From Adineta steineri (taxonomy: Eukaryota; Rotifera; Eurotatoria; Adinetida; Adinetidae), in the NCBI GenBank assembly GCA_905250115.1, contig CAJNOI010000302.1, positions 1 through 64,000 of the forward strand: DNA of 64,000 bases. The letters are read 5' to 3'. Shown piece by piece: positions 10,070-55,191 of this stretch. The notes beneath the pieces were generated by a model, which was not told where the DNA came from, searched no databases, and worked only from the letters and a program-made list of their open reading frames with translations. The translations under genes were made by a program, and so were the position numbers. Numbering within the stretch: position 1 is the stretch's first letter; each line of letters starts with the position of its first letter.

Positions 10070-10184
10070 ATACACACAAAAACAAATTATACATCTTCTT
10101 CGTTCATATAAAGCCTACTATTTCTCAACCGAATAAGGTGGTTGAAACAAATTCAAATATTGCTCTATATGAGATAACAAATAT

Positions 10185-10240: not shown

Positions 10241-10271
10241 CTCCATATTTATTTTTTTTATAGATATCTAA

Positions 10272-12832: not shown

Positions 12833-12843
12833 GTTTTGACACA

Positions 12844-12845
12844 CT
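12844..12845 (-). promoter_or_regulatory. possible spliced-leader acceptor before the 12832 start
   Basis: ATATTTAATTTGTAG ends 11 bases before the ATG. The upstream gene's stop codon is at 12898-12900, leaving no room for a separate promoter plus exon, so trans-splicing of a shared or read-through transcript is the simplest reading. This is inference. Confidence 0.4.
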
Positions 12846-12897
12846 ACAAATTAAATATATAAATTTTATTTACTATGTAATATTTTTTTTATTTCTT

Positions 12898-25879: not shown

Positions 25880-25979
25880 NNNNNNNNNNNNNNNNNNNNN
25901 NNNNNNNNNNNNNNNNNNNNNNNNNNNNNNNNNNNNNNNNNNNNNNNNNNNNNNNNNNNNNNNNNNNNNNNNNNNNNNN
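25880..25979. other. assembly gap (100 N)
   Basis: Exactly 100 N, the usual placeholder for unknown size. It cuts the fifth adenylation domain of the NRPS. Confidence 0.95.
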
Positions 25980-28900
25980 AGAGCTTTTGCAGTTAAATCA
26001 TCACGACCAAGATAACCAGCAAAGACACCTACTCCACCTACAAATAGTTCACCTTCTTCGCCAATAGAAACATATTGTAAATATACATCAAACACTTTGC
26101 ATTGGTAATTAACAAGAAGACTACCTATAGGAACATCCAAATGACCAGAGATGGAATCAATAAGATAAAATGTCGCTAGCATTGTTGTTTCAGCTGGTCC
26201 GTATACGTCCCAAATGTAGCATGTTCTCGCCACGTAGTGCTTGAGATGATATACTAACTTTTGAGAGACAATTTCACCTAGAAATTTAGGAAAGGGTTAT
26301 ATAATTGTTTTTTTTTGTGTATTCTACTAACCTCCAATTGAAAGCGATTGCAGTGTAACTAAAGGATTACCATTAAAACTCTTTCCAATAAAATCACAGA
26401 AACTATACAAAAAACTAGGAACAGATGCCATATACGTAATTTGTTTGGATTGCAGTGTATTTGCGAAATATAAAAAATCCATATTCCCGTAAGAATGTAA
26501 CATGACAACAGTCGCGCCTGAAAGTAAAGTACCAACGATTTCCAGAATATGTGCATCAAATGTAGAAGCAAAAACTTGCATCACAGTGTCGTTTTCGTTA
26601 ATAAAATCAATGTACTGAAGGGAATATATGAAACTTAGGAGATTTTTATGTCTCGTCTGAGTCTAAAACAAAGAGAAGAAATGAAGCATATATTTTAGAA
26701 TGCAGCAAAGACAAACCGCTTTAGGAACACCAGTTGAACCACTTGTAAAAATAATGTAAGCGATGTTGTCAGATGTAACATTTATACTTGATAGTTGATC
26801 AACGTCAGTATCACTTTTCATATCGTTGTTAGCCGATACTAAATCAATATTGACTGAAATTATCTTATCATTAACCTTATTTATTGTAAAACGATGAATA
26901 AGAAGGAGCCGACTTCTTGTTTGTTGTATGAGTGTATGTAAACGATATTCTGGATCTCGAGGTGATAATGAACAATAAACACAACCACTCATTTCTATTG
27001 CCATTATACCAATCACCTATACAAGATGAAAATCTCAGTCACACTAAACATCGGTCTCAAACAACAACTCACCATCGACAAACTTCTCTCCACACATTGA
27101 CATACAATTTCACCTGGAAGAATAACATAGTTGTTTATAAGATATAGAGATAATACTTGGACATAATGTAACAGTTCAGCATATGTTAGAGATTGTTCAT
27201 CTAGTTCAACAGCTAGTTTTTGTGGATATTTCATTACTTGACTTACAAATTCATGATGAATACAAGTGACAGGAGATGACAATGATACTTGGGTATTGTT
27301 TATTGATTGCATGAGTAATCTTTCATTTGGTAATGTTAATGATATTTCATAGATTGATTTATTCATCTGATTATCAAGAGATATAAATAATTGATTCAAC
27401 ATTGAATGAAATCGTTGAGATATGTTATCAATTGTTTCTACATTGAATAAATCAAGTGATGCATCGATTGTGCAGGAGAGCTGATTGAAATTGAGATTGT
27501 GTTGGATTAGAAGTGAGAAATCATACTTATTTCTTATCACATTATCATTAATGTTCATTGTGAAAGGTATCGACGAAAGATGACTATCACCAATCATTAT
27601 TAGTTTATTGTCACTTCTTGTCATAGATGATAGAAATTCAAATGATATATCAAGAAATGCTGGTTTCGAAACATTTGGATGTTGATTGAGAATGCGTTGT
27701 AGTGGAAAATAAGAATATTTCATACTATTGGTTGTTGTCTCTCGAACATAATTGAGTAGATATTGAAACGACGAAGAAGGATCGAGTTGATATCTTAATG
27801 GAATGACATTCTCAAACAGTCCAATGATAGATTTCAGTTCATTTCTATAACGATTGTCTATATTCATTGAAACACATAAATCTTTTTCAGCATTCGTTAA
27901 TTTAAATAAGAAGATAAAGTAAGTAGCAAGTGCTAGATGTTCATGTTTGATATTGTTTGATAATGCATAGAGAAGAAAATGATGTGATAGATCTTGACCA
28001 AAATCAAAGGAGATGGATGTTGTTCGATTAGTTCGATGTTCATTCATAAGACGATATCGATCATATGGTAATGATAAAGATTGATCGAGATGACAATCAT
28101 GTAGAACATCAAGCCAAAACATACTTGCACCAGTCATGGACATTTGTTGTTCAATAACAGCGTCTAAATAAGAAGAAAGAAGCAATTTAAATAGAACAAG
28201 GAATTGAATATACTTACAATCGACATAACGTAGAGCAGCATTATTATCAGTTGTTAGTTGACCTGTTGTATATGCTTGATCGAGATCATGGAGAAAGATA
28301 TTCATTGATGGATAATCAAAGAAAGCATGATGAAAATTGAAGATAATTATATCTTTATCGGAAAGGATGTTATTTGAAGATATTTGTTTGTAATGAATAA
28401 TATGACATCGAAGGACAAGACCTTTAGTGAGACCGAAAAGTTGAGTATTACATTTCTCATTTTTGGTGATAGTATTGAGTTGTTCATCTGTTTCATACTT
28501 GCTTTCATTAATTACAAGGATGTCATTGCTGATATCTTGTTGAGTGAGAAGTCGTTGAATGAGTATATTTTTTTTTGAATCGTAGACGAGTGATGTATGA
28601 AGTGATTCATGTTTGGTTACAACGAGTTGAAGAGCACGACGAAGTTGTTCTACAGATAAAATATCTCCTCTGTAGAGACGATAGAAAAATGGCATATTAT
28701 GGGTCATTAAAGATGATTGATCAGTATCGGTATCTCTTTGATTTTCGGACCATATTCGACATTGTGCAAAGGACGCTGGTGCTGTAAAATTTTAAGTTTA
28801 GCTTGTTACAGTGAGTAATCTAGATAATCAATTGTTCGGTCATAATATTATAGTCACTTTTGTGTATCTATTTTCTAACTGAATTAAGTCAATATTGTTG

Positions 28901-30971
28901 CTATAGTAGTTATATGAGTGAAGAATACAATATTTAACGATTTGACTCATCAAGATTTGCATCAAAACTAACAATAATTACCAAAAGTGATTGGTAATAA
29001 AGTTTCGAAACATTACAAGAATACTTGCACGAAGAAAGGCCCTAATGAATCTAATACTATATCCTTTAATTTCGCTCTCATCAGTATACATCAATGTGTG
29101 CAACGCACGTTACACATATTACCTAAGATTAGAACAATAAACTTTCTAGAAAAGAAGTATAAAGTAAATTAAAAAAGTAAGACTGAGATCTGAAATACAG
29201 CTAGGTTTCCAAATAATCTTGTTATCATATACATGTGCGAGAGTAGAGAGCATACTATAAATAGATGAACGAGAAAGAAGACACCTGATTTTGCAAGATC
29301 ATCGTAATAGTGAGATGTTGCTTCTTCTCATTTTCAATTCAACAAACAAGAAAAAACTCGTATAGCTAGAACATAATAAATCATGCTGTTTTGTCGTATG
29401 CTTTCTTAACGCTAATCTTTTTCATCAATATAAGTATTATAACCTTAAAAACATTTTAAAAATGGGTATACCTTCATTGACAATATTTTCCAGTTTATAA
29501 AACGCTATTGTGTATATCTCTGCACTTTCTTCATGTAAAATAAGAGAAAATTTGCTGATCGATATATTATATCCATTCATCAAAGTATTACTTGATTTAC
29601 TATCAAAAATCTGCTCACAAAGATATTTAAATTTTTGACCTATTATGGCAGCCGTTGTTGTATCAAATATATCACGTGAACAAATAAAAGAGCAAGACAG
29701 TTGATTGCCATCTGAAGATGAATTGTATATAAAGTTCAATGAAAAATCAAATTTAGCCATTTTATATGAATCATTTAACGATACTTCTTCTAGATTGACA
29801 CCATTCAAACATAAGTCATTATCTTCATTTGATATAGTGATGAAATCAAACATTGTCTCAAGAAATGATACATTTGACCGAGTGAGATGTAAATTAGCAA
29901 GAATATGTTGAAGTGGATAATGAGAATGTTCAAGAATTGATAAGCATTTTTCTTGGACATATTTAACTACTTCATCAAATGACCAATGAGAGTCAAGCTC
30001 AACACGATACGGTAATGTTGATACGAACATTCCTATCATATTCACTAATTCACTTCGGTATCGATTAGCATTAATAGAACCAATACATAAATCAGTCTCA
30101 CCATGAGATACTTTGAATAGGAAGACATAAAATATGGATAATCCAAGTTGAAAAAGTGTGAGATGATGTGATGATGCATAGTTTAGAAATGATGTGCATA
30201 ATTCATTATCAAAAGTGATTTCAGCTATGGATGTTAAACCTGATCGTTGTTGATTAGTTGATGAACGTTGTCGATCAACAGGTAATGATAACTGACGTCC
30301 AAGATTATATCCTTTGAGTTCTAATTGCCAAAATTCTTGAGATATTGTCATATTCATCATGTGTTCATGAACAGAATAGTCAATATATTGTAATAAATTG
30401 CCATCTATAGGAAGCAAATCATTAGATTGATAAGCAAGAGAAAGATCACGAAGGAAGATTGATGTCGATGCTCCATCAAAACAAGCATGGTGAATGGTAA
30501 ATAATACCAGATCATCTTTATTCAATAGATCATCGTTATTCTGAGTGAATGAATGATTTGAATGATCACGACGAAGAATATGACAATTAATAACATATCC
30601 TATTGATAAATCAAATAAATCTGATTGATTTAAAATCTTCTTTACAATTTCATTCTGCTCATGTTCATTATCAGGAAGATTAACCGTCGAAAATCTAGAT
30701 GCTTTCTTGTCATTGATAATAGCATCAGCATCTAAACAATGTTGTATAATAGTACCATTTGTGTCGAGATAGAGTGCTGTTCGAAGAATTTGATGTTTTC
30801 TTATAATAGATTGAAATGCATGTTGTAATTGTGAAATAGATATATGATCATTCATAGTTGAAATTCGATAAATTAATGGAATAGCATACATATTGTTAGT
30901 ATTATTATCTGTTGCTGAAAATCGAATTTGTTCATCTAAATAGATTCGTTCCTGAGCATAAGATGCTGAAG
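25980..30971 (-). other. NRPS unit 5: C-C-A, cut by the gap
   Basis: Exons 30971-29472, 28781-28218, 28163-27073, 27016-26717, 26662-26332 and 26277 to the gap. C motifs are HHACFDG and HHAFFDY. The A domain reads TFDAHILE and A5 VYGPAETT, then is lost at GRDDLTAKA, just before A7. The carrier and everything after it are not in the assembly: the sequence beyond the gap (below 25880) shows no NRPS coding. Confidence 0.85.
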
Positions 30972-33900
30972 CTGAAAGAAAAAAGTAAAAGATTATTTTT
31001 AACAGTAACTATGAAAAGTTGTTTCACCTTGAGTGATATGTAGCGGAAGCCACTGATAATCATGAATATCCTGTTTGATACCTTTGATTTGCTGAATAAG
31101 GTGAGCATGATGAATAATTGTTGGCTGTTGAAATAGATTCGAAATAGAAAGAGAATTTGCTTCTAAATGAAATTGGATCTTGTATCGATGAAAAAGTTGC
31201 ATCATAAGTAATGAATGACCACCAATAGTAAAAATATTTGTATCAATTGAGATTTGATTTTGTTTGAATATCTCACACCAAATAAGATGAATACTAACTT
31301 CAATATCATTTGTTGGCAGTAATATTTCTATACTGTTTGTGAGATGTATAGATGAGAAGTGAGGTGAAGGAAGAAGTTTTCGATCTATTTTTCCATTTTG
31401 ATTCAGAGGTAGTTTATCAAGTACAATGAATATGGATGGTATCATATGTGGTGGAAGATGAGATTGACAATGTTGACGCAGTTGTTCTTCATTGATATCG
31501 GAACTTTGAATATATGCAACTAAATAATCATCATTCCATTTGATAACAGTACACGCAGATACAAGTGTAGATGTATACATAAGACATTTCTCAATTTCAG
31601 CTAATTCAATACGTTGTCCTCGCAATTTTATTTGATGGTCTTTTCTACCTTTGAAATAAAGAAAACCTTGATGATCATATCGAACAAGATCACCACTTCG
31701 ATAAAAGATATTATTATTAATCTCAACCAATACTTTTGCCGTCAAATCATTACGACCAAAATATCCAGCAAACACACATGCACCACCAACAAATAATTCA
31801 CCTTCTTGATTAACAGCAGCAAGTTGAAAATATTCATCCATAATTGTACAATGATAATTAGGAAGGGGTTTTCCAATTGACATCACTTGTTTTTCACAAT
31901 CAAAATCGAATTTTATTTGAAAGTATGTTGTAGTAATTGTTACTTCAGCTTGCCCATACATATTCCATAGTTGGCAGCCATCCACCGATGACGATGATGA
32001 TGGTATAGATACATAGTTTTTTAAACGAGACATTATTTGATTTGTTAAAACATCACCTAGAAATGAAATAAATCCTTTTATTTCTCAACCAAAATATTCG
32101 ATTCAGACAGATTTACCTCCACTACACAATATTCGCAATTTCTTTAAACATTCGTTTTCATTTTGCATTTCAAGATGTTGACATAATGTATCAAGATAAC
32201 TTGGTACAGCATCCATAAAAGTCACATCTTTATCCATTAGTTCATGAATAAGATAAGTTAAATCTTTATTACCATGAGGATGTAACATAACTAAACCAGC
32301 ACCAATCATCAATGTTCCTAAAGTTTCTTGAAAATGAATATCAAAAGAGCAACTTGCCATTTGTATTACGTTGTCGCTTTTTTTCAATGTTGTCATTTCA
32401 GCAAAACTTTGCATATAAGCAGTTAAATTACGATGTCGTACTTGAACCTAGATATATATACAGATATACAAATGAAGAATTCAAAGAATTATATTAAACA
32501 AACCGCTTTTGGTATTCCTGTCGACCCACTTGTAAAAACAATATATGATATATTATCTGGAGTTATTGAAATATTTGATAATCGATAAAGATCATCATTT
32601 GTAATTTTACTATTAATACTTATAGTTGTATCAATATCATATGTAACAAAACTGTTTTTAAATATTCGATTTGTTAATGGATGAACAAGTATAAGACGAG
32701 CTTGTGTTTGTTGTACAAGATTCTGAAGACGTTGTTCGGGATTTTCTGGTGATAGTGGACAATAAACACCACCAGCCATTTCAATTCCCATAATACCAAT
32801 CACCTAATCAAAAAATCAATCTCAGACTCGCATTAATTGTTACTTATCTTAATTAACTTACCATGGACAAACTTCGCTCAACACATTGACACACGACCTC
32901 ACCTGAAAACACATGATATTCATTAAGAAGAGTGAAGGATAAGACTTGAACATAATGTAGAAGTTCACAATATGTCAATGATTGTTCATCTAGTTCAACA
33001 GCTAGTTTTTGTGGATGTTTCATTACTTGATATGCAAATTCATGATGAATACAAGTGACAGGAGATGAAGATGATACTTGTGTATTATTTAATGATCGCA
33101 TCAGATATTGTTCATTTGATAATGTTGATGATAATTCATAGATAGGTTTGTTTATTTGATTATCAACAACAGATGTAGATAATTGATGTAAGATGAAATG
33201 AAATCGTTGTGATATCTTCTCTACTATCTCTATATTGAACAAGTCAAGTGATGCATTGATAGTGCACGATAGTTGATTGATATTCATATTATGATGGAAC
33301 GAAAAAGAAAAGTCAGATACACTTAGTGTTTCATCTTCATTATCGTTGAATAAGAAAGATGCTGGAACAATTTGAGAATCACTAATCATTATTGCATTGT
33401 TGTCATTGTTCTTAGCACATGATAAAAATTCCAAAGATGTATTCAAAAATGCATGTTTGGAAATATGTGGATATTGATCGAGAATACGTTGAAGTGGAAA
33501 ATATGAATATTTCATACTATTTGTTGTTATTTCTTGAATATGTTTGAGTAGTTGATGAAAACACCAATGAGGATCTAATTGACATCGTAATGGAATGATA
33601 TTCTCAAACAATCCAATGATTGATTTGAGTTCATCTCTATATCGATTATTACTGATGTTCATCGCCAGACATAGATCTGTTTGTCCATTAGTTAATTTAA
33701 ATAGAAAGATGAAATAAATAGTAAATGTGAGGTGTTCAAGTGATATGTTGTTTGATGATGCATGAGTAAGGAAGTCATGTGAGAGATCTTGACCAAAATC
33801 AAATGAAATAGATGTTGTATGACCAGTTCGATGTTCATTTGCAAGACGATATCGATCGTAAGGTAATGACAAAGGTTGATCGAGTTTACAATCATGAAGA

Positions 33901-36900
33901 GTATCAAGCCAAAACATGCTTGCACCAGTCATTGACATTTGTTGTTCAATAACAGCATCTATCAATCAATTAAAGAAAATAATGTATTAAGAAGAAGACA
34001 AAAATATGGGAACTAATTGTATTTACAGTCGAGATAACGAAGATTAGTTCTGTCATCATATAATAATTGACCTGTTGTATATGCTTGATTCAGATCATGA
34101 AGAAAGATATTCATCGATGCAAAATCAAATAGAACATGATGAAAATTAACGATGATTATATCTTTCTCAGAAAGATGATGATTTGAAGATATGTCTTTAT
34201 AATAAACAATATGACACCGAAAGACAAGACCTTGAGTAAGATCAAAAAGATGAGGATTATATTTTTCTTCATGTATGATGTGATTGAGTTGTTCATGTGT
34301 TGTATAAGTACTTTCAATAAATGAAAATAAGGTATTGTTGTTTTGGTGGAAAGCGGCGATTTGTTGTATGAGTCGATTGTTTTCTGTGTAAAAGGTGAGT
34401 GATGTTCGAAGAGGTTCATGTTTTGTAACGATTAGTTGAAGAGCATGACGAAGATGTTGTGCCGATAAAGTATGATGTGAGTACAGAGAATAAACAAAAG
34501 GGATGTTGTAGATTGGTATTTGTGATATTTGAGGAATGAAATGCACACATCCATTATGCCATAGTCGAGTTTGTGCAAATGATGCTGGTGCTATATAAAA
34601 GAGAAGGTAATGAAATATGATTAATAATATTGGTTGTGACATTTATTGAGAGTTATACAAAAGTTTCACTAGTGACATGAATCCATATTGTAAGCGAAAA
34701 AATGACGCTCGAGTCAGAAATGCTATTTTTCAAAATTTACAGAACACAAATCGTAGGAGATTTTACCCTATGGCATAGTCATCTACCGGAAAACCATCTG
34801 AAACAATAGATTCATGTTGGTACATATGAGAAAAATCTTGAGGATAGCTGTAGGTATGGATACGAATATGAACAAATAATCCACATCCATCCATAGTCAC
34901 ACACTTACCCTATAGTTGAGTACCGCTTCTCGGATAATCCAAGCGATATAAAAAACAAATCCTCGATGATATCTCTGTACAATTTATTCATTCTCAGTAT
35001 TAATGTTCATTAAGGAAAACTTTATGTCTAGATAAATATACCTTCGTTTACAATGTGTGATTGTCGACAAAACATAATATCTTCCATTTCTTGAGTTTCT
35101 TCTGGTAGAATAAGATTAAATTTCGATATAGATGTAACACATGTATCAATTCGAGTGATAGTTTCGTTTGATGAAAAAAGTTGTTGAAAGCAGTATTCCA
35201 ATCTTCGACCTATATTTGTAACTGTAATCTCATCAAATAAATCATGTGAACAAGTTAACCGGAATGATAATCTATGATTTTCCAACAGTGGATCAAAGAT
35301 AAATGTTAACATAAAATCAAACTTAGCCACTTCAGACGATTGTTCAAATGACACTTGTTTGAGACTTGTTCCATCCAAAGATAATTCATCGCTCTGTGAC
35401 GATATAGTAATAAAGTCATACATTGTTTCGAGAAATGAAATACTCGACTGATTAATATGTAAATTAGCAAGGATATGTTGGAGTGGATAATGTGAATGTT
35501 CAAGAATTGATAAACATTTCTCTCGTACATATTTAACATGATCATCAAATGAACAATGAGGATCAATTTGCATACGATATGGCAATATTGACACAAACAT
35601 TCCCATTATATTCTGCAGTTCCGTTTTGTGTCGATTAGCATTAAGACAAGAAATACATAAATCATTTTCACCGTGTGTTAACTTGAAAAGAAAAACATAT
35701 AATATACTCAAACCCAGCTGAAATGGCGTCACATGATGTATAGAAGCATAATCAAGAAATGATTGTGAAATTTCGTTGTCGCAAGAGGTTTGAAAGACAG
35801 AAGCAGAACTCGACCGATGACCATTAGATAAACGACGTCGATCAACTGGTAATAACAATGGAGAGTCGAAATTGTATTCTTCTAATTGTAAATACCAAAA
35901 TTCACGAGATGTTGTCATATCGATTAGACGCTCATGTATACTATAATCAATATATTGCAATGATTCATCATCTTCTATTGGTACTGCATTAGTATTATAA
36001 GCTGAACATAGATCATTGAAAAAGATCGAAGAACTTGCTCGATCAAATGCTGCATGATGAAAAGCAATGAGAAGAACATCAGAATTCATTATGAATTCAT
36101 TCCTATTGTTTTCATTGAATGATGTTTGATGTTTCAGAATTTCAGCATGAAAAACATGACCAGTTGATAAATCGAAGAGACTAGGATTAATAGTTGTTCG
36201 ATGAACGATGTTTTGAAGTTCATTATCATTTTCGAATGTTTCATACATAGTTATTGTGAATGTTTTATGTATATCCGTGATGCATTGTTTCAAAATACTA
36301 TCATCACCATTAAATATAAGAGATGTACGTAATACCTTCTGTTTATTCAACACAAATCGAAATGCTTGCAATAAACGACTGAATGATAATGATCCTTGAA
36401 CGATTTGTAAAGTAATCAGTTCATTATAGATAGCAATATCACTCGAGAAACGAACTTGTTCATCAAGAAATATACGCTCTTGAGCAAAAGAAGCAATACC
36501 TGTGAAATAAATAATAGAAGTTATTCTAATAATTTCCTAGTGAATATTTCTACCTTCATTTATATGTAATGTGTACCATTGTGTTGCCTTTACATTATTT
36601 ATTATAACTGTTTGAAGTAATTGTGAATGTTGAAATATAGTTGGTTGTTGAAGAAATGGAGCAATGGAAAGTGAACGAGTATCAAAGTTAAATACTGATT
36701 GATAATGATGATAAAGTTCAATAAAACATAGTGAATGGCCACCGATACTAAAAAAACTGGTAGTTCCAGAAATGTTATTTTCATTTGAATGAAGAACTTG
36801 ACACCAGATAGTGTGTATACGTTCTTCGAACTGATTAAGAGGAGTGTTAGATTTATCAGACGATAACAAAGTCGACAGAGAAAAGTCAGGTGAAGGAAGT

Positions 36901-39900
36901 TGTTTTCTATCTACTTTCCCATTTTGATTCAGAGGTAATTTGTCAAGTATAATGAATATAGATGGAATCATATGTGATGGAAGATGAGATTGACAGTGTT
37001 CACGCAATTTCTGCTCACTAATATCAGAACTTTGAATATATGCAACTAAATAATCATCATTCCATTTCATGACAACACAAGCAGAGATGGATGTAATGTT
37101 GAGCAAACATCGTTCGATTTCACCAAGTTCAATTCTTTGTCCATGTAGTTTGATTTGATGATCTTTTCTTCCTTGATAATGAAGAAGACCATTGTTATCC
37201 ATTGTAACAAGATCACCTGTTCGATAAAATAGTTTACCATCTACTTCAACAAGAGCTTTTGCAGTTAAATCATCACGACCAAGATAACCAGCAAAGACAC
37301 CCACTCCTGCTACAAACAATTCTCCTTCTGCGCCAGCTGAAATCGGTTGTACGTATACATCAAGCACTTTGCATTGGTAATTAGCAAGAGGACTACCTAC
37401 AGGAACATCTAAATGGCTAGAGAGGGAGTCAATAAGATAAATTGTCGATAGCATTGTTGTTTCAGCTGGTCCGTATACATCCCACATGTAGCATGTCTTC
37501 TCCACATAGTGATTGAGATGAGATACCAACTTGTGAGAAACAACTTCACCTAGAAATTTAGCAAAAGATTGCATAATTGTTTCTTTTTGTGTGTATTCTA
37601 CTAACCACCAATTGCTAGCGATCGCATTGTAACTAAAGGATTTCTATCAAAATCCTTTTCAAGAAAATCACAGAAACTATACAAAAAACTGGGAACAGAT
37701 GCCATATACGTAATTCGCTTGTTTTCCAGTGTATTTGCAAAATAAAAAAAATCCATATTTCCATCAGAATGTAACATGACAACAGTCGCACTTGAAAGTA
37801 AAGCACTGACGATTTCATAAATATGCGCATCAAATGTAGAAGCAAAAACTTGAATCACAATGTCCTTTTCGTTAATATAGTCAATGTACTGAACGGAGTG
37901 TATGAAACTTAGAAGATTTTTATGTGTCGTTTGAGTCTAAAACAAAGAGAAATAATGAAGCATATATTTTAGAATGCAACAAAGACAAACCGCTTTAGGA
38001 ACGCCAGTTGAACCACTTGTGAAGATGATGTAAGATATATTGTCTGGCCTAACTATGACGTTTGATAGTTGATCAACATCAGCACTACCATCCACATCCT
38101 TGTTAACCAATGTGAAATTAATATCAAATATCCGAATATCGTCATCAAACTGTTTTCTCGTTAACCAATGAACAAGAACAAGACGACATTGTGTTTGTTG
38201 TATGAGTGCATTTAAACGATGTTGTGGATCTCGAGGTGATAACGGACAATACACACCACCAGCCATTTCAATTCCCATAATACCAATCACCTAATCAAAA
38301 TTAATCTCATATTCACATTAATTGTTACTCATCTTAATTAACTCACCATTGATAAACTTCTCTCAACACATTGACACACGATCTCACCTGGAAACACATG
38401 ATATTCATTTAGAAGAGTTAAAGATAATACTTGAACATAATATAGAAGTTCACAATATGTCAATGATTGTTCATCTAGTTCAACAGCTAGTTTTTGTGGA
38501 TGTTTCATTACTTGACACACAAATGCATGATGAATACAAGTGAGAGAAGATGGAAAGGATATTTGTGTACTATTCATTGATTGCATTAGATATTGCTCGT
38601 TTGGTAATAGTAATGATAATTCATAGATTGGTTTGTTTATTTTACAATGAGCAGATGTGAATTGTTGATGTAACATTGTGTGTAATCTTTGTGCCATTAT
38701 ACAAACTGTTTCAGCATTAAATAAATCAAGCGATGCATTAATAGTACATGAGAGTTCATTTAGATTCAGATCATGTTCAAAACTAAGAATGAAATCAAAT
38801 TTACTCATTATTTCATCTTCACTAATCTTAATTGAAAAAGGTAGTAAAGAAAGTCGACTATCACCAATCATTATTTCATTTTTCTCATCTTTTGTCATCG
38901 ATGATATAAATTCAAATGATGTATCAAGAAATACAGGATTTGATATATTAGGATGTTGATTGAGAATACGTTGAAGAGGAAAATATGAATATTTAATGCA
39001 GTTTATCATATTATCTTGAATGTGCTTAGTAACTTCATGAAATGATAAATGAGGATCGAATTGACATCGCAAAGGTATAGCATTCACAAACATTCCAATG
39101 ATAGAGTTAAGTTCGTCTCTATATCGACCATGTGTATTTGCACCAATGCATAAATCTTTGTCTCCATTCGTTAATTTGAATAAAAACACATAATATGTAG
39201 CAAGTGCAAGTTGTTCCAGTGATATGTTATTTGATGATGCATGAATGAGAAAGTCATGTGAAAACTCTTGACCAAAATCAAAAGAAGCAGACGTTCCACG
39301 ACCAGTTCGATTTTCATTTGCAAGACGATATCGATCAAATGGCAATGACAAAGGTTGATCAAGTTTACAGTCATGAAGAGCATCAAGCCAAAACATACTT
39401 GCACCAGTCATTGACATTTGTTGTTCAATAACAGCATCTATTATATAATCGAACAAAACAATATATTAGGAAAGGCAGAAGTAAAACAACTAATTATATT
39501 TACAATCGAGATAACGCAGAGTAGTGTTGTCATCATATAATAATTGACCTGTTGTATATGATTGATCGAGATCATGAAGAAAGATATTCATTGATGGAAA
39601 GTCGAATAAAGCATGATGAAAGTTGAAAATAAGTAGATCTCTGTGAGAAAGAAGATGATTTGAGGAGATTTGTTCGTAATAAATAATGTGACATCGAAAG
39701 GCGAGACCTTGAGCAAGATTAAAAAGATGAGGATTACGTCTCTCGTCGTGTAAAATTTGATTCAGCTGTTCATCAGTTTGATAAGTGCTTTCAATGAATG
39801 AAAACATATCAGCGTACTTATCTTTTCGTGTAATAACTCGTTGCATAAGTAGATTCTTTTCGATATCAAAATAAAGTGATGTATGAAGTGCGGAATTTTT

Positions 39901-42900: not shown

Positions 42901-45900
42901 CATTTGTTGGTAGTAGTATTTCTATACTGTTTCGGGGCTGTATAGATGAAAAATGAGGTGAAGGAAGTTGTTTTCGGTCTACTTTTCCATTTAGATTCAA
43001 AGGTAACTTGTCAAGAATAATAAATATTGATGGAATCATATGTGATGGAAGATGAGATTGACAGTGTTCACGCAACTCCTGTTCAATAATATTAGAACTT
43101 TGAACATAAGCAACTAAATAATCATCATTCCATTTCATGGCAACACAAGTAGAGATGGATGTAATATTAAGTAAACATCGTTCTATTTCACCAAGTTCAA
43201 TTCTTTGTCCATGTAGTTTGATTTGATGATCTTTTCTTCCTTGATAATGAAGAAGACCATTGTTATCCATTGTAACAAGATCACCTGTTCGATAAAATAG
43301 TTTACCATCTACTTCAACAAGAACTTTTGTAGTTAAATCATCACGACCAAGGTAACCAGCAAAGACACCCACTCCTCCCACAAGCAGTTCACCTTCTTGA
43401 CCGGTGACAGACGTTTGTAAATATTGATTTATAATTATACATCGATAGTTCGGTAGTGGACCTCCAATCGGGATGTTGATCATATTTAGATTTCTACCTA
43501 TGACATAACCTGTGCAATCGACAGTTGTTTCTGCAGGTCCATAGGTGTTCCATACGGTACATACTTGTGGCAGATATGTATACAACTTATCAATAAGTTG
43601 AACTGTGCTTATTTCTCCTGGAAAGTTTCAAGAATAAGTAGATAAAAATTAAAATGCGAGACGTACCACCAATATCAACAGTACGCAAACTGCTCAACTT
43701 TGGAATGCTGTGAGTTTGTAAGAATTCCAACAAAAGATTGGCATATGTTGGTACACATTGCAGATATGATACTTGTTTTCCATTTAACGTCTTCGTCATA
43801 TACTTTAAATCCATATTTCCATGAGGACGAAGCATTATAATCGTGGAACCATTGATTAAAGTTCCAATGATTTCTTGACCATGCACATCATATGAACAAC
43901 TTGCCATTTGTATCATAATATCTTTATTTGTGAATAAATTCAATCGAACAAGAGAATCAATACAAGCCAACAAATTTCGATGACGGATTTGGACCTAAAA
44001 AGCAAAACTCAAATAAAACTATTATTTAGACAAGATTTCAACCTACTCCTTTAGATGTTCCTGTTGAACCACTAGTAAAAACAATATATGCAATACTGTC
44101 TACCGTTACTATAATATTCGAAAGGCGATCCATAGTTGTAGAACAGTTAATACGACCGACAGCCCATATTAAATCTATGTCACATAAAACGATTTCTCTA
44201 GAAAATTTCAACGTTGTAGAGTAGTGAATAAGAACAACGCGACTATGAGTTTGTTGTGTAAGTGCATGTAAACGATTTTGCGGATCTCGAGGTGATAATG
44301 GACAATAAACACCACCACTTATTTCAATTGCCATTATACCAATCACCTATACAATATGAAAACATCAATCAGGCTACACATCAGTCTCAAAGATCAACTT
44401 ACCATCGACAAACTTCTCTCGACACATTGACAAATGATATCACCTGGAACAATATAATATTTATTCAACAAATGGCAAGATAAAACTTGTGCATAATATA
44501 GAAGTTCAGCATACGTTAATGATTGTTCATCTAGTTCAACTGCTAGTTTTTGTGGATGTTTCATTACTTGATATACAAACTCATGATGAATACAAGTGAC
44601 AGGAGATGAAGATGATACTTGTGTATTACTCAATGATTGCATTAGATATTGTTCATTTGATAATGTTGATGATAATTCATAGATAGGTTTATTTATTTGA
44701 TTATCAACAACAGATGTAGATAATTGATGTAAGATGAAATGAAATCGTTGTGAGATCTTCTCCACTGTTTCTCTATTGAACAAGTCAAGTGATGCATTGA
44801 TCTTGCATGACACTTGATTCATATTCAAATCATGATAAATAGAAAGAGAGAAGTCGGATGCATTTAGTATTCCATCTTCATTATCGTTGAATAAGAATGA
44901 TCCTGGAACAAGTTGAGAATCACCAATAATCATTGCATTATTATTCTTGTATGATATAAACTGCAGAGATGTATTCAAAAATGCATGTTTGGAAATATGT
45001 GGATGTTGATCGAGAATACGTTGAAGTGGAAAATATGAATATTTCATACTATTTGTTGTTATTTCTCGGACATGTCCGAGTAATTGCTGAAAAGACCGAT
45101 GAGGGTCTAATGGACATCGTAATGGCATAACATTCTCAAACAGTCCAATGATTGATTTGAGCTCATCTCTATATCGATTATTATTAATGTTCACAGCGAT
45201 ACATAAGTCTGTTTGTCCATTAGTTACTTTAAATAGAAAGATGAAATAAAAAGCAAATGTGAGGTGTTCAAGTGATATATTATTCGATGATGCATGAGTG
45301 CGAAAGTCATGTGAGAGGTCTTGATCAAAATCAAATGAAATAGATGTTGTATGACAAGTTCGATGTTCATTTGAGAGACGATATCGATCGTAAGGTAATG
45401 ACAAAGGTTGATCAAGTTTACAATGGTGAAGAGTATCAAGCCAAAACATACTTGCACCAGTCATTGACATTTGTTGTTCAATAACAGCATCTATACAATC
45501 AGAGAAGATAATGTATTAGAAAAGAGAAAAGTAGAAGTAGTATTTATATTTACAATCGATATAACGCAGAGTAGTGCTGTCATCATATAATAATTGACCT
45601 GTTGTATATGCTTGATTAAGATCGTGAAGAAACACTTCCATCGATAGAAAATCAAACAAAGCATGGTGAAAATTAAAGATAAGTAGATCTTTGTCAGAAA
45701 GAAGGTGATTTGAAGAGATTTGTTTGTAATAAACAAGATGACATCGAAACACAAGACCTTGATCAAGATGGAATAGATGAGGATTACGTTTCTCGTCATG
45801 TAAAATCTCATTCATTTGTTCATCTTTTTCATAAGTAGTTTGGATGATTGAAAACATATTATTACTATTCTTGTCTTCATGAGTAATAACTCGTTGCATA

Positions 45901-48900
45901 AGTAAATTCTTTTCGATATCAAAATAAAGTGATGTATGAAGTGAGGGATGTTTGTTAACAGTGAGCTGAAGAGCATGACAAAGTTGTTTAATTGATAAAG
46001 TATGACCTGGTTGCAGACGATAAACAAAAGGCATATTATAGATTGCTGTTTGGGGCTTATCTAGAGCGAATCGAATGCGTTTGTCAAGCCATATATGAGC
46101 TTGTGCAAATGATGCTGGTGCTAGAATGATGAGAGCTTAGTGAATTATAATGTGAAATCTGGATGTTCAAATGATGTTTGACAACAATATTCTGTTCATT
46201 TTCAGCGAATCGCTTTTCCAGTTGAACAGAATCTGTATTAATGATACTGTCTTAGTATTAATGCTAAGAATGCATGAATATTTTGCAGTAGTAGTAAAAA
46301 AAGTTTTTTAATATCTTCCACGACGAAAAGTCTAACACCAAATCCTGTCGAATTCTACTATAAAAACTAGTGGATGTTGCCAGCCGCATCTGGATTCGAT
46401 CAGACGATATTGTTCTGAAAGTTTTATGCACATTGATAGCATTATATAACAATTTTATGTTGATGTTGATATCAAAAACAATAGTTTTGCACTCTTATGA
46501 AATTAGCATTAGCATAATACAATTACTGACGACTTGCTTTGAAAAAAAGACAAAATTTGTTCACTTTTGGGAATTCATACTTTAGAAAAAGAAAAGTATT
46601 GTTTTTTATGGATATCATCAACATTCGCGTCGTGCTAATACAAATTTAATGTAAATGGCGAACTATTGTTTCTTTTATCAGCTACTAATATAAGTTTCAT
46701 GCGAGTTTATACAGTTCTAACAGAAAATATCAGTATTTTCTAGTACGAATACTTAAGCGATAGTCTTAGTGAATATTCTTGTTAGTGCTATATAAATCTA
46801 CACTATTCATGTAACCGATAAAACATATTCATCTGATTCATAGAAATTCACCTAAATAATTAATAAATTTGTCTATGATAATATGATATTTTTATCTATC
46901 TATCGATTTTATCTTTCTTTTTCTTTCTTTCTTTTGTAGTTCTTTTTATCATATATGTATATGCTTGTGCTATCAAGGTTTCTAATTTAACTGGATACAC
47001 AGAAACTGATGTACTTTGTAAGGGACTTCGTCTTTACCTTCAAGACCATACTCTTGCAGGAAGGGAACGTAACATTGACGGAATTTTTTTCCAGATCCTC
47101 TAAATGCTAAAATGGGATTAAAGTTGGAAGAAAACTACAGAATCTGGAAACGAGTGATGGATGAAAAACACCTCTCTACGAACAGTATATCATTCTCTTT
47201 TATACTATTACTATTGTTATGCTACAAACTTGTCGTTGCTGTCGTTCAAATAGGATGTAACTTGTTGTCAAGTAACGCGATAATCGTACTAAGTGAAGAG
47301 CATATTCTGAAAAATCTCAGCCACCCTGACAACGAATGAAAACTCATCAAGGTGTCCTAGTTATATGATAAAGTACTCTAACATTGTACTCTACAAAGTG
47401 TGTGAGTGTGGGTGTGCATATTGTATTAATCATACACTCTCACTCGCTCCCACAACTCGATCCACACTCAAATTTTTCTATTGGACATGTTTTTAATATG
47501 TGTATGTGGTTATCGTTATCAAATTCGTCGTTTGCTATATCTTTATGTTCTTCGCTTTTCTTATATGATGTTCTTACACAACTAGAGAATCTTTTCATAC
47601 GAAAAAAGAATAGTCATACCTTCTGTAGTGACGCCTGCCAGGCGACTTAATGTTAATGCATATATTTCGTTCGCTTCTTCAGGCAATATCAAAGACAATT
47701 TTTTGATAGACTTAGTAGATAGGTCTTTTTCCGTGTCATTTGAGTTTGTCAGAAATAATTGTGATAGGAGATGCTGAAATCGTTGCGCTATTGTTTTAAC
47801 AGTAGTGTTGTCAAATAAATCATGCGAACAAGAGAATTGACAGGAAAGTTTATGATCATCTGATGTCGGATTGTAAAGGAACATTGTTGAGAAGTCAAAC
47901 TGAGAAATTTCATCCGATTGTTCGACTGACACTTTTTCTAAGCACACATCATCTGTAGAATATTGATCACTATTTGCAGACACCGGTAAGAAATTAAATA
48001 GTATCTCAAGAAATGGAACATCCAATTGACTAAGTCGAAAATCAGTAAGTATATGCTGAAGTGGATAATGAGAATGTTCAAGAATTGATAAGCACTTTTC
48101 TCGAACATGTTTCACAAGTTCATCAAATGACCAATGCGAATTAAGATGTACACAATATGGTAACGTTGAAACAAACATGCCGATCATATTTTCTAATTCA
48201 CTTCGATATCGATTAGCATTAATAGATGCAATGCATAAATCAGTTCCTCCATGAGTTAGTTTGAATAGAAATACATAAAATGCAGTCAAACCAAGCTGAA
48301 AAGGTGTAATTTGATGTAAGGAAGCATAATTGAGAAACATCATCGACAGCTCCTTATCAAAAGAGATTTGAGCTATCGACGCCAAGCTAGATCGTTGAAC
48401 AGCTAGCAAACGGTGCCTATCAACTGGTAGCTTTAATGCACGTTTCAGATTAAATCTTTCTAGTTGAGAATACCAGAAGCTACGAGATAATGTCATATCC
48501 ATAATTCGTTCATAAACAGCATAATCAATATATTTCACTGATTGTTCATCAAGTGAAACTGTCATGTTATTACTATAAGCATTATAGAAATCACTCAACA
48601 GGATTGCAATAGAAGTTCCATCAACTGCTGCATGATGGAAATATAATACAAGAACATTAGACTTTTCGAGAAAGTCTGTGTGAGCAGTATCATTCATAGT
48701 CTTCTGCTGTTGAAGTATCTGACAACTAAAAACTCGGCCACTGGACAAATCAAATAAATCAGAATTGATAACCGTTTGATAAATAATATTTTGAAGTTCA
48801 TTGTCATTCTCGAAAGTTTGCTGATCAAGAAATGTAAATGTCTTGTGATTGTCAGTGACATATTGCTGTAGAGTACTATCATCATTATTAAACACGAGTG

Positions 48901-51900
48901 AAGTACGCAATATTTCATGTTTCGTCAAAACCAATTGGAGAGCTTGTAGTACTCGATTTATTGATAAGATGCCTTCAGTAACTCGTAGTGCAACAAAATT
49001 ATTATAGAAAATATGTTTAGTAGAGAATCGAATTTGTTCATCCAGAAATATACGTTCTTGAGCAAATGATGCCATACCTGAAAATGCAATAACAAAACAT
49101 TTTAGTTTATTTTAATAGTTAATATTAGAGATTTTTACTTTGATTAATGTGCAGAGTATACCATTGTTCCCTTCGTATATCATCAGTCGCGACTGTCTTT
49201 AATAACTTTGCATGCTGTTGAATAGTTGGTTGTTCAAGAAACGGACTAACAGATAATGTACGACTATCGAAACCAAAGATAGTTTGATAACGATGATAAA
49301 GCTCAATAAACAAACGAGAATGACCTCCGATAGTAAAGAAGTTTGTAGTTGTAGATATATGTCGTCCGTTGCACTCCAGCACTTGGCACCAAATATCATA
49401 CACACTTTTTTCTGCTTGATTGACTGGTGTATCAAGTTCAATTAACGATGGCATAGTTGGCGATGAATAGTGAGGTGATGGAAGTATTTTTCGATCTATT
49501 TTTCCATTTGGATTCAAAGGTAACTTATCAAGAATAATAAAAAAAGATGGAATCATATGTGGTGGAAGATGAGATTGACAATGTTGACGTAGTCGTTCTT
49601 CATGAATATCAGAACTTTGAACATAAGCAACTAGATGATCATCGTTGTATTTAATGACCACACACGCAGAGATGGATGTAATGTTAAGTAAACATCGTTC
49701 GATTTCACCAAGTTCAATTCTTTGTCCACGAAGTTTGATTTGATGATCTTTTCTTCCTTGAAAATGGAGAAGACCATTGTTATCTATTCTAACAAGATCA
49801 CCTGTTCGATAAAATAGTTGACCATCTATTTCGATAAGAGCTTTTGCAGTTAAATCATCACGTCTAAGATAACCAGCAAAGACACCAATACCTCCTATAA
49901 ATAATTCGCTATCTTGATTAGTAATTGATTGTTGTGAATATTCATTTATAACCATACATCGGTAATTAGGAAGTGGTGTACCAATTGGAATACTTTGAGT
50001 ATTAGCCATAGGATGTACCCTATAGAAGGTAGAAACTATAGTAGCTTCAGCTGGACCATATAAATTCCATAAAATACAATTGGGAATATTGCACTCTTCG
50101 ATCAGATCAATCAGTTTGGAAGTCAGTGCTTCTCCTATCGAAACAAAAGTGTAGTGCGGAGAAAATCATGAAAAGTGTCTGTTTTCACTTACCTGCACTA
50201 CAAAGTAATCGGATATACTTTGCAGCATATATTTTATTCGATTGAATGAGGAAACGGAAAAAACTTTGAATTAAAACTGGTACAGTACTAAAATGTGTAA
50301 TCTGTTTATTGTATAACACATCAGCTAGATACTCAAAATCAGTCATTCCTCTTGGACGTAGCATGACACATGTAGCGCCAATTAATAAAATACCAACTAT
50401 TTGTCGAAGATGACCGTCATAAGTACATCGGACGATTTGAACAATCACATCATCGCTCCTCAATGTTGTAACACTCCCAATTGAATATATAAAACGAATG
50501 AAGTTTTCATGGCGATACTGAATCTGTTAGAATGAAGAGAAATAAGAACAGAAAACAAAAATTCTAGTATTCACTTACCGCTTTCGGTACTCCCGTTGAA
50601 CCACTTGTGAAAATGATAAAAGCAATATCATTAGGTGTGACTGTAATACTTGACAGTCGATCAAGATCAGCATCGCCTATTACATCATTATTAGCAAGTA
50701 TCGAATGAATGCCAACTGAAAGAATATCATTATTAAATTTCATTTTTGTTAGCCAATGAACAAGAACAAGACGAGTTTGTGTTTGTTGTATGAATGCATG
50801 CAAACGATGTTGTGGATCTCGAGGTGACAATGAGCAATAAACACCACCAGCCATTTCAATCGACATAATACCAATCACCTAATCAAAATTAATTTATACT
50901 TACATCAGTATTCATTACTCCTAACCAACTTACCATTGACAAACTTCGCTCAACACATTGACAAACTATTTCACCTGGAAACACATGATATTTATTAAGA
51001 AGAGTGAAAGATAAGATTTGAACATAATACAACAGCTCACAATATGTCAATGATTGTTCATCTAGTTCAACAGCTAATTTCTGTGAATGTTTCATTACTT
51101 GATATACGAATCCATGATGAATACAAGTGGGAGCAGATGGAAATGATGTTTGTGTATTATTTAACGACTGCATTATATATTGTTCATTTGATAATACTAA
51201 TGATAATTCATTGATTGGTTTGTTTATTTGACTGTCAATAATAGATGTAGATAATTGATGTAAGATGGAATGAAATCGTTGTGAAATCTTCTCCACTGTC
51301 TCTATATTGAACAAGTCAAGTGATGCATTGATTGTACACGAGAGTTGATTCATATCGAAATCATGCTGAATACTAAGAATGAAGTCAAATTTGCTCATGA
51401 TATCATCTTCACTAATCTTGATCGAAATAGGTATCGCAAAGAGATGACTGTCACCTATAATGATGTCTTTGCCGGGATCTTGTGGTGAATATTGCATAAA
51501 CTCGAATGATGTATCGAGAAATGCAGATTTCGAAGCATGCGGATGTTGATCTAAAAGACGTCGAAGAGGAAAATAAGAGTATTTGCGACTGTTTGTTAGT
51601 ATCTCTTGAACATGTTTAACAAGTGTATGTAGAAACCATTGTGGATCTAGTTGACATCGCAAGGGAATAGCATTGGCAAACATACCAATCACTGATCTAA
51701 GTTCATCTCTGTATCGACCATCTACATACATTCCAATGCACAGATCTGTTTGTCCATTCGTTAGTTTAAATAGAAAAATAAAATACATAGACAACGCCAG
51801 ATGTTCAATTGAGATGTTTTGTGAAGATGTGTAGTAAAGGAAAGTGTCATAAAGATCTTGATCTAAATCGAATGAAATAGATGTTCGAAAACCAGATCGA

Positions 51901-54518
51901 TATTCATTCGTATGTCGATACCGATCATATGGCAATGGGAGAGATTGATCTAGTTTGCAATCATGCAGAGCATCATGCCAGAACATGGTTGCACCAATCA
52001 TAGGCATGTGTTGTTCAATGACAGCATCTATAGAAGAGAGAAAGACATGATATGATTATAAAGAGAGAAGTATGAATATTTACAGTCGAGATAGCGAAGT
52101 GTGTTGATGCTGTCATCGTTGGGTAGTTGACTTGTGGTATATGCTTGATGAAGATCATGGAAAAATATCTTTATCGATGGGCAGTCGAACGTGGCATGAT
52201 GAAAGTTGAAGATGATGATATCTCTATCGGAGATAAGATCATTGGTAGAAACCTGTTTATAACGAACGAGATGCCATCGGAAGACAAGACCCTGAGTAAG
52301 ATCGAAAACATGAGGATTATGTGTCTCATTGTGTATAATCTCATCCAATTGTTCATCTGTTTCATAAATGCTTTCGATTATATAAAACCGATTGTTTCTA
52401 TGATTCTGTTGGTCAACAATTCGTTGTGTAAGAATGTTTTTTGTAGTATCAAAAATAAATGACGTTCTCAGAGATTGATGTTTATCAACAACAAGATCGA
52501 GTGCGTGACGAAGCTGCTGAACAGATAAGGTATGATCAGCTGAAAGGCGATAGCAGAATATCATATTGTAAGTTGCCAATTGTAATCCATCCAAATGCAA
52601 ACGACGTTCTTCATCGAACCATATTTGTTGTTGAGCATATGAAGCTGGTTCTATGATAGTCAGACATTATTCTTACAGTTAAATACTCGAATCTCTCGCA
52701 AATAGCAATATATTGCTTTTGTAATGAAACAGTCATCCTATATTAAACTACTTTCACAAAGAATTCTTTTGTTGAGATGCTGTGTCTCAAACTGATGACA
52801 TTCTTTTATCGAACTTACTATTTTTTATGTTCGAAGGGTTTTAAACTATTTCTACAAGTTACTCATTATGTACGAGTTTTAGTTCATGCAGATATGTAAA
52901 GAGGAATTAGAAACGAGCTTTCTTGGAAGCACTTACTTATTTCAGAGAAATGTCGTAGTGATTCGATGACGTTTGATAAATTTTCAACGTTCATTGGTAA
53001 AAGAGAAAGGTTTCCAATTTTTTCAAAAACTGGATCGAACCCAATCGTTTTCGTGTTTTCAGTAAAGATATGTAAAAGTAGATTCTGAAAATATCGACCA
53101 ATGTTGGACACCGCCATTTCATCGTAACAATCAGCACTACATTCCAAAACACAAAGAGTTGTTTGGCTGAGCTGATTGTGAATCATTTTTAAATTAATAT
53201 CATGAGAAGCAATACCATTGTCATGTAGCCAAGGTTGTTCAGTATATAAACTTAATGTCGCATCATTTGTCTTGGCTATCGATTTCATTTCACTAGTTGA
53301 AGAAGAGTGAATCTCTTCATATTGAAAATGAAACGGGATCTTGTTTGAACATAACTCCCTATTACCCCTGATGATCTGCTGATAAGGTAGTTGATAGTGA
53401 TCAAGGATGTCCATGTCCAGTTGACAAATTCGCTGCACCAAGTTAATAAAACTTTCATTTGCATTAATTTTGATACGATATGGTAATAAATTCGCAAACG
53501 TACCGATCATGCATTTTGTATCAACCAATGATCGCTTTTCTGTTGGATAGGTCACACACAAGTCACTAATAGTACCATCATTGAGTTCATAAATAAAGAG
53601 AAAGAAGCACGCTAATGCTGTATGAGACATAGCCAAATTATGCAGCGATGCAAATTCCATCTGAGCTTCGACAAGTATCGAATCCAGTATAAACGATGTA
53701 CTATGCCCTTCTCCAGAACGCTTTTTTGTGTCGAATGGGCGCGTAAATGGTGTCGGATAGTTTGCATTAAGACTGTAGTCATCCATCATTTTTGACCAAA
53801 ACTGTTGGGCTCTTCGTACTTGAGAGTCTTCGGGAATATTAACGAATTGTTGATGCTCATGCAGACTGAAACTGATATATTGTAACCTTTCAACATCCAC
53901 TTCCATTTGATCGTATGCTTTTGTAAATGCAACAAGAAACGGACTAATAGAATTATAATCGAATGCTACACCATGAATTATGAAAATAACTAGATCTTGC
54001 GGATATAATTTGTCCATATCATCGTCAGATCTCACCTTAACTAGATGACAACGAACAACTAAACCATGTTCCAATTCAGCAAAATGCCTGACTGATTCAT
54101 TTCTGAGTAGATCAGCAATTTCATCGAGACTTTGTGTATCGTCTGCTGTTATTTCAAAGGAATAAGCACCATTGTTGACCACAGATCGTACTGCTTGGAC
54201 CAAGATATTACGATTTTCATCGAAGTAAATTGCTGTTCGAAGTATTTCATGTTGTTCAAGAACAGCAACAACCGCCGAACGAATACGCTCGATTGACATT
54301 GAGCCATGTTTAATTACCAAAGGGAGAACAAAATTGTGCATGGCGGGTGATATTGATGGATCGTGATGAATCTTTTCATCGAGCCATATCCGTTCTTGTG
54401 CGAAAGATGCAGCACCTTGTGAACACCCAGCAGTAGGAATAGCTGATGATGCTGATGAAAGCATCATTTCTTGCTCTTGAATCTTTTGTAATAAAGCCAT
54501 TTCCTTCATTATTTTCAT
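25980..54518 (-). CDS. giant nonribosomal peptide synthetase, five C-C-A-T units, 3' end in the gap
   Basis: At least 30 exons, all joined by GT/AG introns whose phases agree, give more than 7,750 codons. Domain order is (C-C-A-T)x4, then C-C-A cut by the gap. NRPSs load amino acids on carrier domains as thioesters (A domain, ATP), and C domains form the peptide bonds in the cytosol. All four complete A domains keep A3 (FTSGSTG), A7 (YR[TS]GDLV), A8 (GRKDHQIKL) and A10 (NGKxDRK), and all four carrier domains keep the phosphopantetheine serine in GGHS, so the enzyme looks functional. The likely start is the ATG at 54518 (MKIMKEMALLQK); 54509 and 54500 are in-frame alternatives. A phosphopantetheinyl transferase and any thioesterase or reductase lie outside the window. 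Introns are host-like; the domains are bacterial/fungal-like, as expected for a transferred gene long resident in a bdelloid. The alternative is several genes, but phase 1+2 agreement at every unit junction argues against it. Confidence 0.85.
31028..36499 (-). other. NRPS unit 4: C-C-A-T
   Basis: Exons 36499-35042, 34590-34027, 33958-32862, 32803-32504, 32447-32117 and 32056-31028. C motifs are HHAAFDR and HHVLFDF, so the Gly/Asp-Gly position of the first domain is replaced by Arg. The A domain shows SFDIHFQE, A5 MYGQAEVT (Gln for the usual Pro/Thr), A7 YRSGDLV, A10 NQNGKIDRK; the carrier IFTIGGHSLLM. The last exon is 33 nt longer than in units 1-3 because of an 11-residue Ser-rich insertion (PSSSSSVDG) just before A5. 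Substrate probably differs from units 3 and 5. Confidence 0.85.
36554..42553 (-). other. NRPS unit 3: C-C-A-T
   Basis: Exons 42553-41042, 40067-39504, 39437-38347, 38290-37991, 37936-37606 and 37549-36554. C motifs are HHAMFDG and HHALFDF. The A domain shows TFDAHIYE, A5 VYGPAETT, A7 YRTGDLV, A10 NQNGKVDRK; the carrier FFSIGGHSLCF. Its A domain closely matches the one in unit 5 (TFDAHILE, same VPSFLYSFCDF and WDVYGPAETTML segments), which predicts the same amino acid at both steps. Confidence 0.85.
42622..49077 (-). other. NRPS unit 2: C-C-A-T
   Basis: Exons 49077-47620, 46120-45554, 45490-44403, 44346-44047, 43994-43667 and 43617-42622. The first C has HHAAVDG, the canonical motif; the second HHALFDF. 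The A domain has SYDVHGQE in the A4 region, A3 FTSGSTGTSKG, A5 TYGPAETT, A10 NLNGKVDRK; the carrier has IFTIGGHSLLI. The intron between the two C domains is the longest of the gene (1,499 bp) and contains a telomere-like hairpin at about 47396-47470. Confidence 0.85.
47396..47470. repeat. telomere-like hairpin repeat inside an NRPS intron
   Basis: GTGTGTGAGTGTGGGTGTG is opposed by CACTCTCACTCGCTCCCACA. It lies within the 1,499-bp intron between the two C domains of unit 2. Confidence 0.55.
49139..54518 (-). other. NRPS unit 1: C1-C2-A-T
   Basis: Exons 54518-52937, 52650-52084, 52027-50934, 50878-50579, 50523-50193 and 50134-49139. C1 is the most divergent C domain: its core reads IIHGVAFDY where HHxxxDG is expected, so the first His is lost and Gly replaced by Tyr; it may be a starter-type or inactive domain. 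C2 has HHATFDC. The A domain has A4-region CTYDGHLRQ, A5 LYGPAEAT, A7 YRTGDLV and A10 NPNGKIDRK; the Asp that binds the substrate amino group appears kept. The carrier has TIGGHSRLF. A preceding N-terminal stretch of about 40 residues is Met/Gln/Ser-rich and resembles no docking domain I know. Confidence 0.8.
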
Positions 54519-54735: not shown

Positions 54736-55191
54736 TTACTTCATCCGATGAAAACTTTCATAGTTATTGTTGGTGATTGTTTCGCACTTTTCCATATAAA
54801 TATCAAAGCCTCCTACATAAGGTATAAAGACTCGTGGTTTTCCAGGAATATTTGCCCCGTTGTAGATTGACTTGGATGGTCGAAAAAAAGTATTTTCGAC
54901 TACATCATTTACATGTTTAACCCAAGTATTCTCTAAGTCTAGAGTAGGTTGTATCATATTGATATGTTGCGTTCGTAGATATTCCAAACATTTTATTATC
55001 CATTTAACATGTTGTTCGATATGTGGAACCATATTAGCTAAGTCAGATAGAGCACCGGGGCCACTAATTGTAAGTAAGTTTGGAAAGTCAGTGATCATCA
55101 GACCTTGATAATCATGCCATAATTTATTTAATTGTTTTGTAAAAAAGATAAAATTGATGTTGAAGAATTTTTTGTTTTGATGGATAATCAT
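54736..55191 (-). pseudogene. C-terminal fragment of a Baeyer-Villiger (FAD/NADPH) monooxygenase
   Basis: From about base 55110 down, the frame matches the C-terminal third of Baeyer-Villiger monooxygenases: YQGLMITDFPNLLTISGPG, then NMVPHIEQHVKWI, WVKHVNDVVENTF, and NGANIPGKPRVFIPYVGGF near the end. Family members are about 500-550 residues and need an N-terminal FAD-binding GxGxxG and a FxGxxxHxxxW fingerprint, neither of which is present here or upstream, so only about 130 conserved residues survive. These enzymes insert oxygen next to ketones and are often tailoring enzymes in bacterial and fungal clusters. The fragment lies between the live NRPS and a decayed NRPS segment, on the same strand; it is best read as a relic of a transferred gene. 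A truncated but transcribed gene cannot be excluded. Confidence 0.75.

Follow-up and report, generated by a model that had tools for sequence, protein, structure and literature searches.

Two condensation domains in each of the five units of an intron-bearing NRPS gene

An NRPS module normally has one condensation (C) domain. Two C-superfamily domains in a row are known from the tandem heterocyclisation domains of siderophore synthetases (PMC12971057), and this arrangement recurs in the gene described here; heterocyclisation domains have a DxxxxD motif in place of HHxxxDG (PMC1894796), whereas the present domains carry the His motif and no DxxxxD, and a reading of them as heterocyclases was rejected. 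In C-A-T-E and T-E-C-A-T lines, a domain of the same superfamily, the epimerisation (E) domain, likewise lies between T and the next C domain; judged by tree, motif and profile, the domain in this place here, C1, is no E domain. Bacterial tandem C domains of the icosalide type (PMC8949500; loci L051 and L083 of our comparison) have the same C-C-A-T order and no epimerase, and in L051 the arrangement is repeated three times. NRPS genes are known to be abundant in bdelloids (PMC11258130, PMC10531068), and the bdelloid NRPS/PKS family treated there (Nowell et al. 2024, PMC11258130; PMC10531068) is, like the present gene, animal, intron-bearing and multimodular, with a C clade apart from the bacterial domains.

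Gene model, repeated units and selection

The window, that is, the whole 64,000-nucleotide stretch of DNA that was analysed, has a GC content of about 30%. Its NRPS gene was modelled by joining minus-strand stop-to-stop frames at frame-keeping GT-AG sites, and the spliced model opens with an ATG at 54518 and runs for 7,754 codons, in 30 exons separated by 29 introns, with 0 stops. At the other end the frame runs into a run of N (25880-25979), an assembly gap, so that neither a T domain of unit 4 nor the end of the gene is visible. An earlier note on this DNA had placed an animal NRPS at 25980-54518. Both limits are exact, the first being the gap edge and the second the ATG, and the introns, together with an animal-type 7TM receptor ORF in the same window, point to an animal host and bear out that attribution. 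The receptor, the GC content, the short introns and the abundance of NRPS genes in bdelloids make a bdelloid rotifer the probable host.

The gene consists of five units with the order C1-C2-A-T, and all introns lie at the same place and in the same phase in every copy. The six exons of a unit hold C1, C2a, C2b-A, A, A and A-T, and the introns after them are in phases 1, 1, 0, 0, 1 and 1, respectively. The repeated C-C-A-T unit of the earlier note is thus seen as a six-exon repeat in five copies, with matches to PF00668 in 10/10 C domains; its retention in all five units, also claimed there, can be followed through four complete units, the fifth being cut by the gap within A. The A domains match PF00501 and PF13193 and the T domains PF00550, motifs A3, A5, A7, A10 and GGHS are present in the four complete units, and C, A and T follow each other in the order and with the core motifs of an NRPS elongation module. 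The features are as follows.

25980..54518, minus strand: NRPS gene, 30 exons, 7,754 codons, 3' incomplete at the gap (spliced model)
52944..54413, minus strand: unit 0 C1, divergent, HGVAFDY, second His lost, no T upstream (motif, domain match)
51153..52648, minus strand: unit 0 C2, HHATFDC, 56-base intron spliced (motif, domain match)
49467..51128, minus strand: unit 0 A, code DGRSCALIVK, anchor-based and tentative (Pfam, motifs)
49197..49466, minus strand: unit 0 T, GGHS (Pfam, motif)
47627..49075, minus strand: unit 1 C1, HHAAVDG, one exon (PF00668, motif)
46121..47619, minus strand: longest C1/C2 intron, 1,499 bases, in unit 1 (phase 1 GT-AG)
44622..46118, minus strand: unit 1 C2, HHALFDF (PF00668, motif)
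42956..44597, minus strand: unit 1 A, tentative code DVQQDGTVDK (Pfam, motifs)
42686..42955, minus strand: unit 1 T (Pfam, motif)
41049..42551, minus strand: unit 2 C1, HHAMFDG, one exon (PF00668, motif)
38566..40065, minus strand: unit 2 C2, HHALFDF (PF00668, motif)
36882..38541, minus strand: unit 2 A, tentative code DAYAAGVMLK (Pfam, motifs)
36612..36881, minus strand: unit 2 T (Pfam, motif)
35049..36497, minus strand: unit 3 C1, HHAAFDR, one exon (PF00668, motif)
33081..34588, minus strand: unit 3 C2, HHVLFDF (PF00668, motif)
31362..33056, minus strand: unit 3 A, tentative code DIQDCGMITK (Pfam, motifs)
31092..31361, minus strand: unit 3 T (Pfam, motif)
29479..30969, minus strand: unit 4 C1, HHACFDG, one exon (PF00668, motif)
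27292..28779, minus strand: unit 4 C2, HHAFFDY, 54-base intron by chance open in frame (PF00668, motif)
25982..27267, minus strand: unit 4 A, truncated by the gap, tentative code DALASGVMLK (Pfam, motifs)
25880..25979, no strand: assembly gap, a run of N behind which the remainder of unit 4 and the gene end lie (sequence)
55683..57963, minus strand: remnant from the same family, decayed, with stops and frame changes; A end, T, C1, C2 start

The introns within the units are 49-68 bases long, except for those between C1 and C2, which measure 286, 1499, 974, 451 and 690 bases in the order of the units and are all phase-1 GT-AG introns. Introns of this length could pass for intergenic DNA, and a reading of separate genes as one, or of the doubled C as a tandem-duplication relic on its way to decay, can also point to the lost catalytic His of unit 0 C1 and to the decayed relative just upstream. 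However, the phase-1 donor of the C1 exon matches C2 in 5/5 units, with an identical splice in each, and upstream of the C2 exon a stop occurs within 4-16 codons, without an ATG, in 4/5 units. Lacking an in-frame start there, C2 must be spliced to the upstream exon, and with 7,754 codons free of stops and dN/dS well below 1 we consider decay or separate genes very unlikely.

Between units, NG86 dN/dS is 0.29-0.48 for C1 (units 1-4), 0.21-0.44 for C2, 0.33-0.42 for A and 0.17-0.43 for T, with some dS values above 1 and a possible bias from inter-unit exchange; no domain class stands out as relaxed. C1 and C2 are both under purifying selection; between units 1 and 3, C1 is the faster-evolving of the two. 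The view that the doubled C is functionally retained rather than decaying thus agrees with the open frame and with dN/dS of 0.2-0.5, but since the first C1 lacks the catalytic His, conventional activity cannot be assumed for all ten domains.

The pocket codes of the A domains were read via anchor motifs and are hence tentative, with the final K assumed from the A10 motif, not seen in A4; those of A2 and A4 are alike, and those of A0, A1 and A3 differ. Identity across all units is 78-91% in the first part of A; in the pocket exon it is 31-42%, except between units 2 and 4 (78%). The pocket part of each A is an exon of its own (26332-26662, 32117-32447, 37606-37936, 43667-43994 and 50193-50523, minus strand), and no other exon has diverged as much from unit to unit, as if pockets had been diversified exon by exon.

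The remnant just upstream (55683-57963, minus strand) runs from an A end through T and C1 into C2, of which it has the first 50 residues. Interrupted by stops and frame changes, it presents the T-C1-C2 order for a sixth time and shows what decay looks like. An ORF at 54739-55203 had been read as a monooxygenase tail, a reading that was withdrawn since it has no Pfam match. Elsewhere in the window, several ORFs (8418-14370, minus strand) look related, carrying a CPCS motif as well as hydrophobic stretches; they perhaps form a local membrane-protein family, whose one scanned member (8418-9479) has no Pfam match. The repeats TVxTSGxYxFTSxSSxDTYG... at 21068-23172 (minus strand) resemble a gene for a secreted or surface protein, and the repeat copy that was scanned has no Pfam match either.

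Origin of the two condensation domains

The ten C domains are distinct sequences with full domain matches, and C1 and C2 are 31-37% identical outside unit 0; the doubling is therefore neither a chance similarity nor an echo of the assembly. They were compared with 47 bacterial reference domains in IQ-TREE (57 rows), the references being drawn from 12 plasmid NRPS regions and 79 bacterial genome loci and their subtypes set by context and motifs, not by annotated labels. The genome loci came from a scan with a mixed profile, the C1 profile alone having given 0 matches; a scan of viral contigs found no relative. The ten domains form a single clade (100/100), which has full support also in FastTree. 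Within it, C1 of units 1-4 (100/99) and C2 (100/100) each form a clade, and unit 0 C1 branches first (93/67). Since all ten form one clade against the bacterial references, C1 and C2 are products of one C duplication, which took place in this lineage or in a donor outside the sample. This duplication preceded the five-fold amplification, because C1 (units 1-4) and C2 are separately monophyletic and because an internal intron is present in 5/5 C2 domains and in no C1.

Profile matches to PDB structures and the tree both place the clade beside the LCL domains, at a weak node (81/37) and with C2 lacking the Gly of HHxxxDG. The best profile matches of C1 and C2 alike are condensing C domains of known structure; structures predicted from the window's own sequences (mean pLDDT 46.6 for C1 and 36.3 for C2) were too poor for a structure search. 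Among other readings, an X domain was rejected (4tx2 ranks below condensing C domains, and the His motif is kept in 9/10 domains), as was a dual E/C domain, since the two dual references group in the tree with DCL, apart from C1 and C2.

C1 occupies the exact position of an E domain, and in motif C5 it has Ser (units 1-4), as do 16/25 of the E reference domains; C2 has Asn, as do 314/344 of the references not flagged as E. The C-C order might thus be a misreading of an ordinary C-A-T-E line, a danger that the earlier note had itself pointed out. However, a clade of C1 and E domains costs 58 log units (AU p = 1e-4), and INANRY stands in place of LEGHGRE, so that the EGHGRE motif and its catalytic Glu are absent. 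The score for TIGR01720, which is associated with E domains, is 17.5 against a cut-off of 74.2, and a gramicidin epimerase was matched by the C1 profile only, at just 1e-4. An epimerising C1 is hardly credible on these results, and the doubled-C interpretation came through them intact.

Active sites and a possible division of work

The second His is kept in 9/10 C domains and the Asp in 10/10. The domain after T had been described as HHxxxDG-like, which is true of C1 in three units (HHAAVDG, HHAMFDG, HHACFDG); unit 3 has HHAAFDR, with Arg for Gly, and unit 0, where C2 keeps HH, has HG in C1 (HGVAFDY) and has lost the second His. The C2 motifs are of the form HHxxFDF/Y/C, as claimed (HHATFDC, HHALFDF twice, HHVLFDF, HHAFFDY). 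The Gly of HHxxxDG is thereby replaced by Cys, Phe or Tyr in 5/5 units, and an aromatic residue or Cys at this position is rare among the 344 bacterial domains not flagged as E. The Arg of core motif C2 is His in three of the C2 domains, and C2 has the usual linker into A. Of 85 LCL-conserved columns, 44-48 are kept in C1 (units 1-4), 42-45 in C2 and 33 in unit 0 C1, and because retention is alike in C1 and C2, sequence does not tell which copy condenses.

The X domain of glycopeptide synthetases is a docking platform for a tailoring enzyme. One of the two C domains, either C1 or C2, could similarly be catalytically idle and serve as a spacer, a folding partner or such a platform. Each class departs at a usually fixed position (Asn to Ser in C1; Gly to Phe, Tyr or Cys in C2), the faster evolution of C1 between units 1 and 3 points the same way, and fungal synthetases are known to contain N-terminal C domains without catalytic activity (PMC11546977). 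However, His-His and Asp in 9/10 domains are more than a pure scaffold needs, and the solved structures that come closest are those of condensing C domains and not of X; we regard an idle copy as rather unlikely.

The hypothesis that we tentatively prefer, and would call possible rather than probable, starts from a probably horizontally derived NRPS of an animal, most likely a bdelloid rotifer, which now bears introns. An LCL-like C domain was duplicated in tandem inside one module, and the doubled module C1-C2-A-T was then amplified to at least five. C2, in its normal fusion with A, would make the peptide bond, and C1, in the E-domain slot of T-E-C-A-T lines, may present, gate or process the donor, the peptide carried by the upstream T, before C2 uses it. 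Unit 0 C1, with no upstream T, would have been free to lose its catalytic His while unit 0 C2 stayed intact. This division of roles is suggested by the position of C1, its E-like Ser, the loss of His in the sole C1 without an upstream T, and the shared grouping of T with the following C1. The groupings agree in that T domains pair as 0-2 and 1-3 and the following C1 domains as 1-3 and 2-4, a pattern that a duplicated two-unit block would also give. T-E-C-A-T lines (23/28 tandem pairs) show that an intervening C-fold domain does not keep T from reaching the C domain behind it. Against C2 as the bond-former stand the loss of Gly in 5/5 C2 domains and of the Arg in three, the cleaner HHxxxDG of C1 in 3/4 downstream units, and the need of unit 0 C2 for a donor in trans; the role of the second His is debated (review, PMC11546977).

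The nearest chemical competitor of this division between a bond-forming C2 and a donor-handling C1 is an icosalide-like logic, in which C1 would join the upstream chain and C2 would acylate the module's own amino acid from acyl-CoA, giving two building blocks per module. It would account for the dead unit 0 C1, without upstream T, and the intact unit 0 C2, and fits the HHxxxDG kept by C1 in 3/4 downstream units. In bacteria, C-C-A-T modules occur whose second C is divergent and possibly starter-like (three in L051, one in L083), and an icosalide synthetase with internal starter C domains has been described (PMC8949500). However, C2 lies outside the starter-type domains in the tree, its grouping with the second C domains of L051 and L083 was rejected (p-AU 0.03), acyl donors would be needed at all five modules, and an acyl-supply gene was not recognised within the window. 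We therefore consider this logic unlikely.

Comparison with known systems

The bacterial loci, a sample chosen by similarity to C1 and not a census, contain 28 tandem C-family pairs, 23 of which are E-C and five non-E C-C-A (three in L051 and one each in L083 and L061). In all five, an LCL domain is followed by a C domain that is not its sister. L051 is a Pseudomonadales MAG (PAPM01000024.1) with three C-C-A-T modules. L061, from Pseudomonas cichorii ICMP 3353, has one such module, whose second C lies next to the LCL group and carries an HHLLADRAS motif. The pairs of L051 and L083 combine LCL with a divergent, possibly starter-like C, whereas both C domains here stem from one duplication; the icosalide synthetase itself lies outside the compared set.

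A literature search on tandem or consecutive condensation domains or the C-C-A-T order found no relevant description, and a doubled C, as present here, is not mentioned in the accessible text of the bdelloid articles (PMC11258130, PMC10531068). The gene family is already known from bdelloids; what is new, relative to that portion of text, is the origin of both C domains from one duplication and their presence in every unit.

We suggest, again as a possibility short of a probable one, that an animal lineage has built a new elongation module, in which one C domain was duplicated, its work divided (C1 for the donor and C2 for the bond, or the reverse) and the module multiplied, with several A pockets. 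The gene illustrates assembly-line evolution in a eukaryote, with module amplification after intron gain and a diversified pocket exon, and serves as a natural experiment on which features a condensing C domain cannot lose and on donor versus acceptor roles. Known doubled C modules add a second type of C domain; here, in an animal, a single domain was duplicated, and both copies have diverged and been retained.
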